Assembly: GCA_024228355.1 (NCBI GenBank)
Contig: JAAETN010000759.1
Location: 1-35,098, forward strand
Length of the DNA stretch: 35,098 bases
Origin: Maribacter sp.
GTDB lineage: Bacteria; Bacteroidota; Bacteroidia; Flavobacteriales; Flavobacteriaceae
Reading direction: 5' to 3'
The position numbers and the translations under genes are program-made. Of the stretch, positions 29,970 to 35,098 are shown piece by piece. Every line of letters begins with the position of its first letter. Positions within the stretch are counted from its first letter, which is position 1. A model generated the notes under the pieces. That model was not told where the DNA came from. It did no database searches and was given only the letters and a program-made list of their open reading frames with translations.

Positions 29970-30497
29970 ATGAGTGAAAAAGACAACATCACCTTTGATG
30001 TATTGATAGAAATACCTAAAGGAAGTCGTAACAAGTATGAATATGACTTTACACTGCATAAAATCCGTTTTGATAGAACCTTATTTTCTTCAATGATGTA
30101 TCCGGGTGATTACGGTTTTATCCCCGAGACCTTGGCATTGGACAAGGATCCTTTAGATGTTTTGGTATTATGTACTGAACCTACTTTTCCAATGGTAGTA
30201 GTCGAAGTTAAACCCATAGGTGTCTTTCATATGACCGATGAAAAAGGTCCTGATGAAAAAATCATTTGTGTGCCAATTTCTGATCCAATTTGGAGTGAGC
30301 GAAAGGATATAAGTGATATAAACCCCCATAGATTAAAGGAAATTGAACATTTCTTCCAAGTATATAAAGATCTGGAGAAGAAAAAAGTCGATGTAGGCGG
30401 ATGGGGAGATGCCAAAGAGGCCGTGGAAATTTATCATAAATGTGTTGAACGCTATGATAAAAGCGAGCATAAGAAAAAAAGAACTTTCACAATATAA
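29970..30497 (+). CDS. ppa: Inorganic pyrophosphatase, family I (soluble)
   Basis: Cytosolic Mg-dependent hydrolase of pyrophosphate. The family signature is visible as DKDPLDVLVL (metal-binding aspartates) with upstream IEIPKGSRNKYEYD, RTLFSSMMYPGDYGFIPETL, and downstream VKPIGVFHMTDEKGPDEKII and KKKVDVGGWGDAKEA. Length (175 aa) is normal. It is followed by its own terminator and then by the membrane pyrophosphatase gene, so both PPi-cleaving enzymes are adjacent but separately transcribed. Confidence 0.96.
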   Translation: MSEKDNITFDVLIEIPKGSRNKYEYDFTLHKIRFDRTLFSSMMYPGDYGFIPETLALDKDPLDVLVLCTEPTFPMVVVEVKPIGVFHMTDEKGPDEKIICVPISDPIWSERKDISDINPHRLKEIEHFFQVYKDLEKKKVDVGGWGDAKEAVEIYHKCVERYDKSEHKKKRTFTI

Positions 30498-30514
30498 TCC
30501 ATAATTTGTGGTCA

Positions 30515-30554
30515 TAAAAAAGCAGGCATTTATTATTAAATGTCTGCTTTTTTT
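30515..30554 (+). terminator. Intrinsic terminator after ppa
   Basis: A-tract, then AGCAGGCATTTA pairing with TAAATGTCTGCT (one G-T wobble) around a 3-nt loop, then seven T. Confidence 0.88.
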
Positions 30555-30612
30555 ATCTGTTTGATTTTACTACTTTAGCTGCCGTTATAAAAACCTTAAA
30601 TAACTAAACAAA

Positions 30613-33027
30613 ATGGATTTAATCGTAAAGTTCTTACCTGCTTTTGGTGTTTTGGCACTACTCTTTGTATGGATCAAAAATATCTCGGTTTCGAAGCAGG
30701 AAGTTGGTAATGAAAAAATGGCAAATATTGCCAAGCATATTGCAGATGGGGCAATGTCTTTTCTAAAAGCAGAATACAAAATACTATCAATTTTTGTTAT
30801 TGCCGTAGCTATTCTCCTTTATTTTAAAGGAACAAATGAGACAGGATCCAACGGGATGGTAGCCGTTTCGTTTATCGTGGGCGCCATTTGTTCGGCACTG
30901 GCAGGTTTTATTGGAATGCGAGTAGCTACCAAGGCCAATGTGAGAACAACACAAGCTGCTAGAACTTCATTGGGTAAAGCTTTGGAAGTTGCATTTGCCG
31001 GTGGATCTGTAATGGGACTAGGTGTTGTAGGTCTAGGTGTTCTAGGGTTGAGCGGTTTATTCATGATATATCAAATGATGTGGCCGGGGGCTGATAATTT
31101 ATCAATGGTATTGAACGTACTTTCAGGATTTTCCTTAGGTGCTTCATCTATCGCATTATTTGCCCGTGTGGGTGGTGGTATTTATACCAAAGCTGCTGAT
31201 GTAGGTGCTGATTTAGTTGGTAAAGTAGAAGCTGGAATTCCAGAGGATCATCCTTTGAATCCTGCAACGATTGCAGATAACGTGGGTGATAATGTTGGTG
31301 ATGTAGCAGGAATGGGAGCCGATTTATTTGAATCATTCGTAGGATCCATTATTGGTACCATGGTGCTGGGAGCATTTATTATTACGCCAGAGTTTGAAGG
31401 ATTAGGCGCGGTATACCTGCCATTGGTATTGGCCGCAGTTGGTATTATAATGTCAATAATAGGCACATTTTTTGTAAAAGTAAAAGAAGGTGGAAACCCT
31501 CAAACTGCCTTGAACATAGGCGAGTTTGGATCTGCAGGACTAATGGTAATAGCCTCATATTTTATAATTCATGCAATGATTCCTGAATCACTTGAAGGTT
31601 TGCCAAGCGGGGCAATGGGCATTTTTTGGGCAACTTTGGCTGGTTTAGTTGCTGGCTTGGGTGTTGGTAAAATCACCGAATATTATACGGGAACCGGAAC
31701 TAAACCTGTAAATTCAATTGTACGCCAATCTGAAACTGGTGCTGCAACAAACATTATTGCAGGTTTGGGAGTAGGTATGATGTCGACTATGATACCAATT
31801 TTGTTGATTGCTGCCGCAATTCTAGTATCGCACCATTTTGCGGGACTTTACGGTATTGCAATTGCTGCTGTGGGAATGTTGGCTAATACTGGTATTCAAT
31901 TGGCTGTTGATGCTTATGGACCAATTTCAGATAACGCAGGTGGAATTGCTGAAATGGCAGAATTACCAAGTGAAGTTCGAGAGCGCACTGATAAATTGGA
32001 TGCTGTTGGGAATACAACCGCTGCCATCGGAAAAGGATTTGCAATAGCTTCAGCTGCATTGACTGCTTTGGCTTTGTTCTCTGCATTTATGAAAGTAGCG
32101 AATGTTACATCTATTGATGTTTCAAGACCTGATATAATGGCCGGATTATTAGTAGGTGGAATGCTTCCTTTCATATTCTCTGCCTTGTCTATGAATGCAG
32201 TTGGTCGTGCCGCAATGGCAATGATCGAGGAAGTACGTCGCCAGTTTAGGGATATTCCTCAATTGAAAGATGCTTTGGAAGTCATGAGAGCGGTCGATTC
32301 AGATATGTCAAAGGCAACCCCAGAACAGCGTGTAATTTTTGACAAGGCTGACGGATTGGCCGAGTATGATAAATGTGTTGATATTTCCACAAAAGCTTCT
32401 ATTAGGGAAATGGTATTACCAGGTCTTTTGGCTATTGCCGTTCCTGTTGCCGTTGGTTTTATTGGTGGTGCTGAAATGTTAGGAGGTCTCTTGGCCGGTG
32501 TTACCACTTGTGGAGTAATGATGGCTATCTTTCAGTCGAATGCTGGTGGTGCATGGGATAATGCCAAGAAAATGATCGAATCTGACGGAAGAAAAGGTTC
32601 AGATGCTCACAAAGCAGCTGTTGTAGGTGATACTGTTGGTGATCCTTTCAAAGATACCTCAGGACCGTCATTGAATATTCTATTAAAATTAATGTCTGTT
32701 GTAGCCTTGGTTATTGCACCAAGTATCACATTGTCATCCGATGCCGTAACTGCTTATAATGAACAAAAAGCTAATACTGAAATGGTTGCAGAAGCGGTTC
32801 AAAAAGAAGTAAGGGTCGAAATGAAGAAGAATGATGATGGTACAGTTAATGCTACTGTAACTACGACTACAACTGAAAACGGAGAGGAATCAGTGGTAGA
32901 AGAAGTTTTCGCTGGAACTGAAGAAGAGGTTAAAGCGAAAGTTGAAGCTTATAAAGGTGATGCAAAGGATTTAAAAATTAAAGTAAAAAAGGTTATAGAG
33001 GAAGTTATCGAAGAAGAGGAAAACTAA
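30613..33027 (+). CDS. hppA: Membrane-bound ion-pumping pyrophosphatase
   Basis: Integral membrane pyrophosphatase coupling PPi hydrolysis to H+ and/or Na+ export. Substrate motifs: [53 protein letters not shown], and [19 protein letters not shown]. The segment [10 protein letters not shown] has Ala where K+-independent enzymes have Lys, placing it in the K+-dependent group. The pumped ion cannot be settled by eye. About 16 transmembrane helices end near residue 708. A roughly 95-residue polar C-terminal tail follows (Thr-rich [15 protein letters not shown], then charged [18 protein letters not shown] and a Glu/Lys end), beyond the usual family end. Total 804 aa. A strong terminator lies 22 bp downstream. 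Confidence 0.95.
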
Positions 33028-33078: not shown

Positions 33079-33786
33079 TTAAAAGAAATTCAGCGATGAT
33101 TCTACCGGTAATTCGTAGGGCTTCCCGTCCTTTTCAAAAATACGCGCACTAAGGTTTCCACCTTTTAGCGTTATTTCATTATTTTGAATTCGAATCCAAC
33201 TTCCTTCCCTTAAACCAATAACCGGGGTAGTATTGAATTCATGAAATTCCTTAATTCGGGTTTCCCTTGTTTCACCTTTATGTTTTGATGAAGGATTAGG
33301 GTCTAGATAATGCGGATTTATATTGAAAGGAATAATCCCCAAGGCCTCAAATTTTGGAGGATATACAATTGGCATATCATTAGTGGTCTTTATGTTCAGC
33401 CCAGCTATATTGCTTCCAGCACTTGTACCCAAGTAAGGAACTCCGTTGGTAATAACTTCTTTCATTTTGGGAATGAGTCCAAATTGGTATAAAGCATTAA
33501 TAAGAACAAAGGAATTTCCGCCACCGGTAAAAATCCCTTCCGAATTTTTAATTGCTTCAATTGGATCCCTGAAAGTATGAATGCCTACAATTTTTTTACC
33601 AATATTCCTAAATCCTTCTTGAGCTATATCGGTATAGGTATCATGGGAAATACCCGTTGGTCTTGCGTAGGGAATAAATAAAATTTCGTCAGTCTCTTTG
33701 TATAATTCCCTAAGTGAATCAAATAGATAATCTAAATAACTTCCTCCAAATACAGTTGATGTGCTTGCTAGTAGACAGTTTGTCAT
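33079..33786 (-). CDS. pepE: Peptidase E (alpha-aspartyl dipeptidase), family S51
   Basis: Cytosolic serine peptidase hydrolysing dipeptides with N-terminal aspartate. The nucleophile is in LGTSAGSNIAG (Ser near residue 123), with IFTGGGNSFVLINAL before it and FNINPHYLDPNPSSKHKGET after it (the catalytic His/Glu region). The N-terminus is LLASTSTVFGGSYLDYL. Length (235 aa) is normal. It is the second gene of the minus-strand pair with the deoxynucleoside kinase (12 bp gap). Confidence 0.92.
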   Translation of the reverse strand: MTNCLLASTSTVFGGSYLDYLFDSLRELYKETDEILFIPYARPTGISHDTYTDIAQEGFRNIGKKIVGIHTFRDPIEAIKNSEGIFTGGGNSFVLINALYQFGLIPKMKEVITNGVPYLGTSAGSNIAGLNIKTTNDMPIVYPPKFEALGIIPFNINPHYLDPNPSSKHKGETRETRIKEFHEFNTTPVIGLREGSWIRIQNNEITLKGGNLSARIFEKDGKPYELPVESSLNFF

Positions 33787-34568: not shown

Positions 34569-34580
34569 CTATCTAAAATC

Positions 34581-34650
34581 ATGAGGAAAGATTTGTCTGA
34601 TTGCAACCTCGTATACCGATTTTGTCGGTTTAAAAAATGCTAAAGCAGTA
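34581..34650 (+). promoter_or_regulatory. SAM-II-type riboswitch aptamer upstream of metK
   Basis: Conserved SAM-II pieces appear in order: P1 strand GAGG (34583-34586), GATTTG (34590-34595), TTGCA (34601-34605), P1 return CCTC (34607-34610), an A-rich stretch, then GCTAAAGC (34639-34646). CTG (34597-34599) can pair with CAG (34646-34648) to form the pseudoknot with the GC/GC pairs. A 5-bp hairpin (34615-34619 with 34625-34629) is inserted in the connecting loop. SAM-II elements bind S-adenosylmethionine and usually lower translation of methionine/SAM genes, consistent with metK 75 bp downstream. Confidence 0.8.
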
Positions 34651-34652
34651 AC

Positions 34653-34706
34653 TACTGAATTTCTTCGGTATTTTCGCTTCGATTGCAATCAATTTGATCT
34701 TTCCTC
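34653..34706 (+). promoter_or_regulatory. Expression platform of the metK riboswitch
   Basis: A 7-bp hairpin (34653-34659 with 34664-34670) is followed by two segments complementary to the aptamer 5' half: TTGCAATC (34683-34690) to 34599-34606, and ATCTTTCCTC (34697-34706) to 34583-34592. This helix cannot coexist with P1 and the pseudoknot. It ends 17 nt before the metK ATG. Confidence 0.7.
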
Positions 34707-34723
34707 CTACAAATTAAGTGAAA

Positions 34724-35098
34724 ATGGCATATTTATTTACCTCAGAATCTGTTAGTGAAGGGCATCCTGACAAAGTGGCCGATCAAATTAGTGATGCTTT
34801 ATTGGATAGTTTTCTGGCTTTTGATCCAGAAAGTAAAGTGGCCTGCGAGACCTTAGTAACTACAGGACAAGTGGTTTTGGCCGGTGAAGTGAAAAGTCAT
34901 ACCTATTTGGACGTCCAGAATATTGCAAGAAGTATTATCAATAAAATTGGTTATACGAAAGGGGAGTACCAGTTCAGCGGTGATTCATGTGGCGTAATTT
35001 CATTGATTCACGAACAGTCCCAAGATATTAATCAAGGTGTAGACAGAGGTTCAAAGGAAGAACAAGGAGCAGGTGATCAAGGAATGATGTTCGGATAC
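34724..35098 (+). CDS. metK: S-adenosylmethionine synthetase, N-terminal part
   Basis: First 125 codons; the gene runs off the right edge (full length is usually 380-430 aa). It makes SAM from methionine and ATP. Visible motifs: [20 protein letters not shown] (ATP/Mg-binding His and Asp), [13 protein letters not shown], and [11 protein letters not shown], which contains the conserved methionine-binding GAGDQG hexapeptide. The ATG at 34724 gives the standard N-terminus MAYLFTSE. It is preceded by the SAM-II-type riboswitch, so feedback control by its product is expected. Confidence 0.95.

Follow-up and report, generated by a model that had tools for sequence, protein, structure and literature searches.

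A long-loop SAM-II aptamer and a conserved anti-aptamer strand in the metK leader of a Maribacter sp.

Introduction

SAM-II is a well-studied small riboswitch. In the relevant section of a 2024 review it is filed under direct occlusion, and strand exchange is treated as a separate group (PMC10907184). Passages of Barrick and Breaker 2007 describe alpha- and betaproteobacterial SAM-II elements as most often tied to predicted terminators (PMC2258182), and excerpts of Scheuer 2022 report that SAM-II control in Sinorhizobium operates through a terminator and at the start codon (PMC9373788). SAM-II also occurs outside the proteobacteria: Corbino 2005, in the portion considered here, mentions the Bacteroides group (PMC1273637), and the corresponding part of Weinberg 2010 lists "SAM-II long loops" from marine samples as well as from Bacteroidetes (PMC2864571). 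An initial annotation of the locus described here, which placed SAM-II mostly in alphaproteobacteria and had it act near the ribosome-binding site, was therefore incomplete with respect to both the Bacteroidetes long loops (PMC2864571) and the alpha- and betaproteobacterial terminators (PMC2258182).

Excerpts of a study of Flavobacterium johnsoniae indicate that structure around the start tunes translation (PMC6847099). In the transcriptome of Flavobacterium psychrophilum, five Rfam-predicted 5' elements are expressed, and SAM-II is not named among them in the text sections considered (PMC9723704). The term SAM-II is absent from the main text of TaRTLEt (PMC12121620) and from that of the Bacteroides thetaiotaomicron transcriptome map (PMC7366714). 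Among the matches listed, which were mostly open literature without supplements, no description of an anti-aptamer strand in Bacteroidetes SAM-II was found, and such a strand is provisionally regarded as undescribed. Here we report on the metK leader in a 35,098-nt stretch of Maribacter sp. DNA, referred to below as the window, and on the corresponding leaders of its relatives.

Results

SAM-II aptamer in the metK leader

Across the whole window, the sole gathering-level Rfam match was to the covariance model RF01726 (SAM-II, long loop) at positions 34577 to 34653 of the forward strand, on which all of the leader features described below are located. The match was full length (model positions 1 to 60 of 60), with a score of 63.8 bits against a gathering score of 44 and an E value of 3.2e-10. 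The opposite strand of the aptamer gave no Rfam match, and an aptamer on the reverse strand was rejected on this basis. The initial annotation had read a SAM-II-type aptamer in this leader and had suggested the Rfam SAM-II model as a check; the search upheld that reading. As the score is above the gathering level and the element is located in the leader of the SAM gene metK, the segment 34577-34653 is, by model match, a SAM-II aptamer, for which SAM binding is predicted. A genome search detected one SAM-II copy in this genome. The RF01726 alignment placed the P1 strands at 34582-34586 and 34607-34611, and a hairpin inside the long loop was read from the sequence and folding at 34616-34628. From knowledge of the family, we take TGCTAAAGCAG (34638-34648) to be the 3' strand of P2. 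An upstream open reading frame within the aptamer (ATG at 34581, 20 codons) was considered and rejected, since an ATG directly before P1 was present in only 10 of the 194 leaders described below.

The metK gene (S-adenosylmethionine synthetase; 34724-35098; Pfam PF00438, E = 1.3e-42) starts at the ATG at 34724-34726 and is truncated by the window end. Its N-terminal sequence was 94% identical over 125 residues to those of Flagellimonas flava and Sinomicrobium weinanense, each being among the best named matches. The aptamer match ends 70 nt upstream of the AUG (34653 versus 34724). Upstream of the aptamer, TATTTTTG at 34561-34568 matches the flavobacterial sigma-A box TAnnTTTG, which is located at -12 to -5 according to the relevant passage of the F. 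psychrophilum study (PMC9723704), and the metK transcript would be expected to start near 34573, about 10 nt before P1. Of the 194 leaders, 184 have a TANNTT[TG]G motif 5' of the aptamer, compared to 21.6 expected from shuffles, and the motif begins a median of 21 nt upstream of P1. A divergent deoxynucleoside kinase gene (PF01712; 33799-34413) is located upstream of the metK leader and is adjoined by a peptidase S51 gene (33079-33786). Genes for a soluble inorganic pyrophosphatase (PF00719) and then a membrane proton-pumping pyrophosphatase (PF03030) are also found near metK, at 29970-33027; the metK reaction releases pyrophosphate.

A downstream strand complementary to the aptamer

The strand at 34683-34706, between the aptamer and metK, repeats the 5' half of the aptamer imperfectly and in inverted orientation. 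Within it, ATCTTTCCTC (34697-34706) is complementary to GAGGAAAGAT (34583-34592) over 10 bp and TTGCAATC (34683-34690) is complementary to GATTGCAA (34599-34606) over 8 bp, exactly as the initial annotation had specified. The 6x6 internal loop that it had drawn between these pairings was reduced to a predicted 4x4 loop by one extra pair at each loop edge (one U-G and one U-A), giving a predicted helix of 11 bp plus 9 bp, beyond which three further pairs were predicted. The claim that the two folds exclude each other was borne out, because the bases of P1 and the pseudoknot are also used by the anti-aptamer helix. The aptamer-downstream duplex had a predicted energy of -29.2 kcal/mol (z = -5.2), and none of 100 dinucleotide shuffles was as good. 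Folding of the 150-nt leader gave a z value of -5.5, with 0 of 200 shuffles being equally stable, and inclusion of 37 nt of coding sequence gave a z value of -3.5, with 1 of 200 shuffles being equally stable. A second, CTTTAGC-like anti-strand, directed against the P2 strand, was enriched in the family, with pairing at a level reached by 5% or fewer of 30 shuffles in 40 of 194 leaders; this anti-P2 pairing, as seen in other clades, lacked significance for the window leader (z = +0.3).

Distribution of the aptamer and assembly of a leader set

At an E value of 0.001 or less, SAM-II was detected in 11 of 12 genomes of the genus, in 34 of 40 relatives and in 215 of 219 sampled family genomes with a completeness of at least 90%, 210 of which were above the family cut-off. 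In a class-wide sample of 149 genomes, 22 had a match at this level; this survey provided 20 new loci, of which 9 were without a core match and 11 were inspected by eye only. A set of 194 distinct metK leaders was built from 243 loci and covers part of the SAM-II places from the 219-genome family survey. A total of 47 loci were dropped as they did not match a text pattern for the aptamer core, a pattern which favours canonical cores, yet RF01726 matches six of these (L010, L026, L163, L226, L234 and L241). The other 41 dropped loci were metK loci chosen without Rfam, at least one of which (L113) has the core by an earlier pattern.

Loci L002 and L031 were left out of the counts, as metK was not found downstream. 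In these loci, SAM-II (at 1501-1614 and 1501-1602, respectively) lies upstream of other genes; the gene downstream of the L002 element resembles, by reading, an O-acetylhomoserine sulfhydrylase, and an anti-strand-like sequence is present in L002. Two of the metK leaders, L196 and L037, contain GC-rich segments together with CCGCTTTAGCA, a complement of GCTAAAG, features that suggest further platform variants. In L023, the anti-strand appeared, by reading, to be weak.

Coupling between the aptamer and the anti-aptamer strand

The duplex between an aptamer and its own leader was better than dinucleotide shuffles at P values of ≤0.05 in 124 of 194 leaders and ≤0.01 in 74 of 194, and the mean duplex energy was -18.0 kcal/mol for own versus -16.2 kcal/mol for swapped combinations; P values from these shuffles and swaps ignore relatedness. 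Counts of duplex classes were set aside, since the two arms of the helix are often joined by the duplex program. Because relatives are not independent, a metK tree and non-overlapping pairs of leaders were then used. There were 62 independent pairs whose 5' domains differed within the first 13 nt; of these, 44 favoured the own combination and 17 disfavoured it (sign test, P = 7e-4; Wilcoxon test, P = 7e-6). When any difference in the 5' domain was allowed, 79 independent pairs were available, with the own combination being better in 50 and worse in 21.

Compensation was analysed in those leaders that have a CAAAT register (94 of 194). The base of the aptamer immediately 5' of GATTTG formed a Watson-Crick pair with its partner in 65 of these leaders, compared to 40.3 expected if the positions were independent (G-C, 23; A-T, 41; G-T, 5; A-C, 6; Fisher P = 2e-9), and 8 of the 16 independent contrasts at this position showed full compensation. 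For the G of GATTTG, there were 75 Watson-Crick pairs versus 64.8 expected, and 5 of 9 contrasts were compensated. Coupling was absent in this set at positions three and four beyond ATTTG, with 52 and 33 of 94 pairs being Watson-Crick compared to 48.7 and 32.7 expected, and only 1 of 17 contrasts was compensated at position three. Within the genus (11 sequences), 85.8% of the cells of the window helix were paired, as opposed to 42% to 57% when the helix was slid, and covariation was confined to a single two-sided change, with a score reached by 88 of 500 shuffles. Covariation of the helix, a check proposed in the initial annotation, was seen across the family, with compensation at two positions, and was not significant within the genus.

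These results indicated that complementarity is kept in relatives which keep the aptamer and that it tracks aptamer changes across the family. The downstream helix is exclusive of the aptamer fold, as in strand exchange, and is conserved and compensated in the family; in the genus it is conserved with little variation. The locus had been portrayed as an unusual outlier, a picture at odds with the presence of SAM-II in almost every family genome sampled and of an anti-strand commonly among metK leaders. An inverted copy, even an imperfect one, could in principle reflect a functionless duplication or chance complementarity, but this explanation is highly improbable for a conserved strand whose changes go with those of the aptamer across independent pairs. 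Taken together, the sequence comparisons indicate that the anti-aptamer strand is real and conserved. The distance from the end of this strand to the AUG had a median of 21 nt (5% to 95% range, 13 to 41 nt; 194 leaders), which would place the end of the strand roughly outside the initiating ribosome.

Absence of terminators and composition of the leader

No GC-rich hairpin with a T-tract was found between the aptamer and metK in the window, and the window sequence has no T-tract 3' of the anti-aptamer helix, the latter having already been remarked upon in the initial annotation. Across the leader set, a simple hairpin-plus-T pattern of our own detected intrinsic terminator-like hairpins 3' of the aptamer in 2 of 194 leaders. 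Intrinsic termination was rejected for the window on these grounds, in agreement with the earlier view that simple termination was unlikely. As there is no terminator after the helix, the switch most likely acts on translation initiation, and would do so in a lineage without Shine-Dalgarno pairing.

The same strand exchange could alternatively control transcription or decay. An aptamer locked by SAM would leave a C-rich, G-poor, unstructured leader of about 45 to 70 nt onto which Rho or an RNase could load, so that the metK message is stopped or destroyed, and the anti-aptamer helix would mask this site at low SAM. Rho uses exposed C-rich, G-poor stretches. The C-over-G skew from aptamer to start was +0.141 per nt in the leaders compared to -0.002 in 79 controls (P = 1e-28), the part of the leader 5' of the anti-strand still had a C/G ratio of 2.9, and the rarity of intrinsic terminators (2 of 194) is also consistent with such an output. 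The window itself, however, was only mildly C-rich (+0.059; 78th percentile of the 79 controls), part of the skew would follow from pairing with a purine-rich aptamer, and the moderate distance between anti-strand and AUG (5% to 95% range, 13 to 41 nt) is not needed by Rho. The section of the 2024 review considered here names riboswitches in which a rut or RNase site becomes exposed (PMC10907184). We regard an output through transcription or decay as the main rival to control of translation initiation, less probable but a serious alternative.

A candidate start-hiding helix

The translation start region of the window, AAGTGAAAATG (34716-34726), includes the metK AUG at 34724-34726 and, according to duplex and fold predictions, can form 11 pairs, two of them G-U, with a candidate anti-start strand, TATTTTCGCTT, at 34669-34679. 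The upstream-to-start duplex had a predicted energy of -14.0 kcal/mol including flanking pairs, and 0 of 60 shuffles were as good. Pairing of 34671-34679 with 34716-34724 was present in the fold predicted with the aptamer locked. The openness of the start region was compared between a fold of the leader alone with the aptamer locked (bound) and a fold of the whole leader (free), both computed without pseudoknots or SAM. In the window, openness was 0.25 bound and 0.59 free, corresponding to the 4th and 78th percentiles, respectively, of 79 control upstream regions, and the shift ranked 7th of 194 leaders. This shift arises because TATTTTCGCTT can pair with AAGTGAAAATG and cover the AUG.

Across the 194 leaders, mean openness was 0.563 free and 0.498 bound. 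The free-minus-bound difference exceeded that of shuffles (P = 1e-12, a value which ignores relatedness) and was above 0.1 in 64 leaders and below -0.1 in 15. The difference stemmed from a more open free state and not from a more closed bound state: the bound state of the family was not more hidden than that of shuffled leaders (0.498 versus 0.515; P = 0.29) and equalled that of ordinary genes (0.498 versus 0.498 in the 79 control upstream regions). In 87 independent pairs, coupling of the start-region duplex was weak, with the own combination being better in 45 and worse in 31 (sign test, P = 0.14; Wilcoxon test, P = 0.004), and coupling of openness was absent (P = 0.24 for the bound state and 0.41 for switching). 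Only 25 of the 194 leaders had a start-region duplex that outperformed shuffles at P ≤ 0.05, although own duplexes beat permuted ones with a z value of -5.9, these figures again ignoring relatedness. Perfect Watson-Crick start-region helices of at least 10 bp were present in 7 of 194 leaders versus 1.0 expected from swapped leaders, and those of at least 8 bp were present in 19 versus 9.1 expected, several of these helices being AT runs. No covariation of the start-hiding helix was detected in the genus, where 57.6% of cells were paired, a level reached by 240 of 500 shuffles. A family-wide start-hiding helix was not supported, given the lack of openness coupling in the 87 pairs and of covariation in the genus, and the helix is proposed for the window and for some clades. 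Translational start-hiding is the most likely output for the window and is not established for the family.

In the L022 and L222 leaders, ATACTTCTTTA is complementary to TAAAGAAGTAT, which adjoins the ATG, and 10 bp of the same helix is found in L038 and L208. The 12 nt before the metK ATG in these four leaders carry (C)TAAAGAAGT, a sequence like the GCTAAAG strand of the aptamer, and this sequence is perfectly complementary, over 10 to 11 bp, to a strand between aptamer and anti-strand.

Directly 3' of the aptamer, a small hairpin (ACTGAA/TTCGGT) at 34654-34669 covaries in the genus. For this hairpin, 91.7% of cells were paired and three of six pairs had changed on both sides in 11 sequences, a covariation score reached by 5 of 500 shuffles. 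Its role is possibly in pausing or spacing.

Relative stability of the alternative folds

The mixed fold containing the anti-aptamer helix was better than separate folds by at least 5 kcal/mol in 188 of 194 leaders and by 13.6 kcal/mol in the window (-13.6), energies which exclude contributions of the pseudoknot and of SAM. The anti-aptamer fold is thus the predicted ground state and, if the energies are correct, SAM must act during transcription, before the anti-strand emerges. These predictions suggest a co-transcriptional, kinetic switch.

The predicted ground state, together with the lack of family-wide support for the start-hiding helix, would also fit a scheme in which the anti-aptamer helix is real but regulation consists of occlusion or altered mRNA stability near the aptamer, and in which the downstream strand does no more than sharpen the response by acting as a kinetic trap. 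The aptamer match ends at 34653 and the AUG is at 34724, a layout that departs from direct occlusion. With 70 nt between aptamer and AUG and no Shine-Dalgarno pairing in this lineage, direct occlusion has little to occlude, and we consider this scheme improbable.

Discussion

We favour, with a probability of roughly 55%, a SAM-II riboswitch with strand exchange that feeds back on metK and has a translational output. The alternative pairing is supported by conservation and covariation, and its dependence on SAM is predicted from the bases that the two folds share. The 5'-most RNA would fold as a SAM-II pseudoknot, and binding of SAM during transcription of the leader would keep the aptamer locked. 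When SAM is absent, the strand 34683-34706, made about 35 to 58 nt after completion of the aptamer, would invade the 5' half of the aptamer and form the anti-aptamer helix of 11 plus 9 bp. At low SAM, this helix would be present and the AUG region open. At high SAM, with the aptamer locked, the freed leader strand 34669-34679 would pair with 34716-34726; as the AUG would be covered in this state, high SAM would be expected to switch metK off.

A broader interpretation is that a family without reliance on Shine-Dalgarno pairing rebuilt SAM-II from an occlusion device into a three-way strand-exchange switch, in which an inverted 5' half of the aptamer competes with the original and a released leader strand hides the AUG. 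We put this forward tentatively and consider it less probable than the simpler scheme. Similar caution applies to the L022, L038, L208 and L222 leaders, in which, under a three-way arrangement, a single strand might conceivably choose between aptamer and start codon.

The aptamer class is already known, and the new element is the variant of the expression platform, whose output step we infer. SAM-II is nearly universal in the sampled Flavobacteriaceae. If members of this family use strand exchange without a terminator or Shine-Dalgarno pairing, they would offer a natural and widespread system for studying riboswitch control and, more specifically, control of a ribosome for which an unstructured start region is important.

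The closest described relative is the RF01726 long-loop SAM-II of Weinberg 2010, which, in the part of that paper considered, has the same aptamer model and phylum; the window copy precedes metK (PMC2864571). The main-text account there, to the same extent, gives motif and taxa without an anti-aptamer strand or a control mechanism (PMC2864571). Proteobacterial SAM-II of metA and metZ, as described in passages of three papers (PMC1273637, PMC9373788 and PMC2258182), resembles the window in having a separate platform downstream and in being expected to be OFF with SAM. It differs in having predicted terminators, whereas the window has no hairpin with a T-tract and such hairpins occur in 2 of 194 leaders. 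The Sargasso Sea SAM-II, assigned to the direct-occlusion group in the review section considered, belongs to the same aptamer class (PMC10907184). Its ribosome-binding site lies in the pseudoknot; in the window, 70 nt separate the aptamer from the AUG, and the competitor is a distinct downstream strand. Strand-exchange riboswitches acting on a start region, a rut site or an RNase site, as outlined in the same section (PMC10907184), share with the window an aptamer strand common to two exclusive helices. Those examples have another aptamer, and the lineage of the window is without Shine-Dalgarno pairing, so that we propose the AUG region itself as the target.
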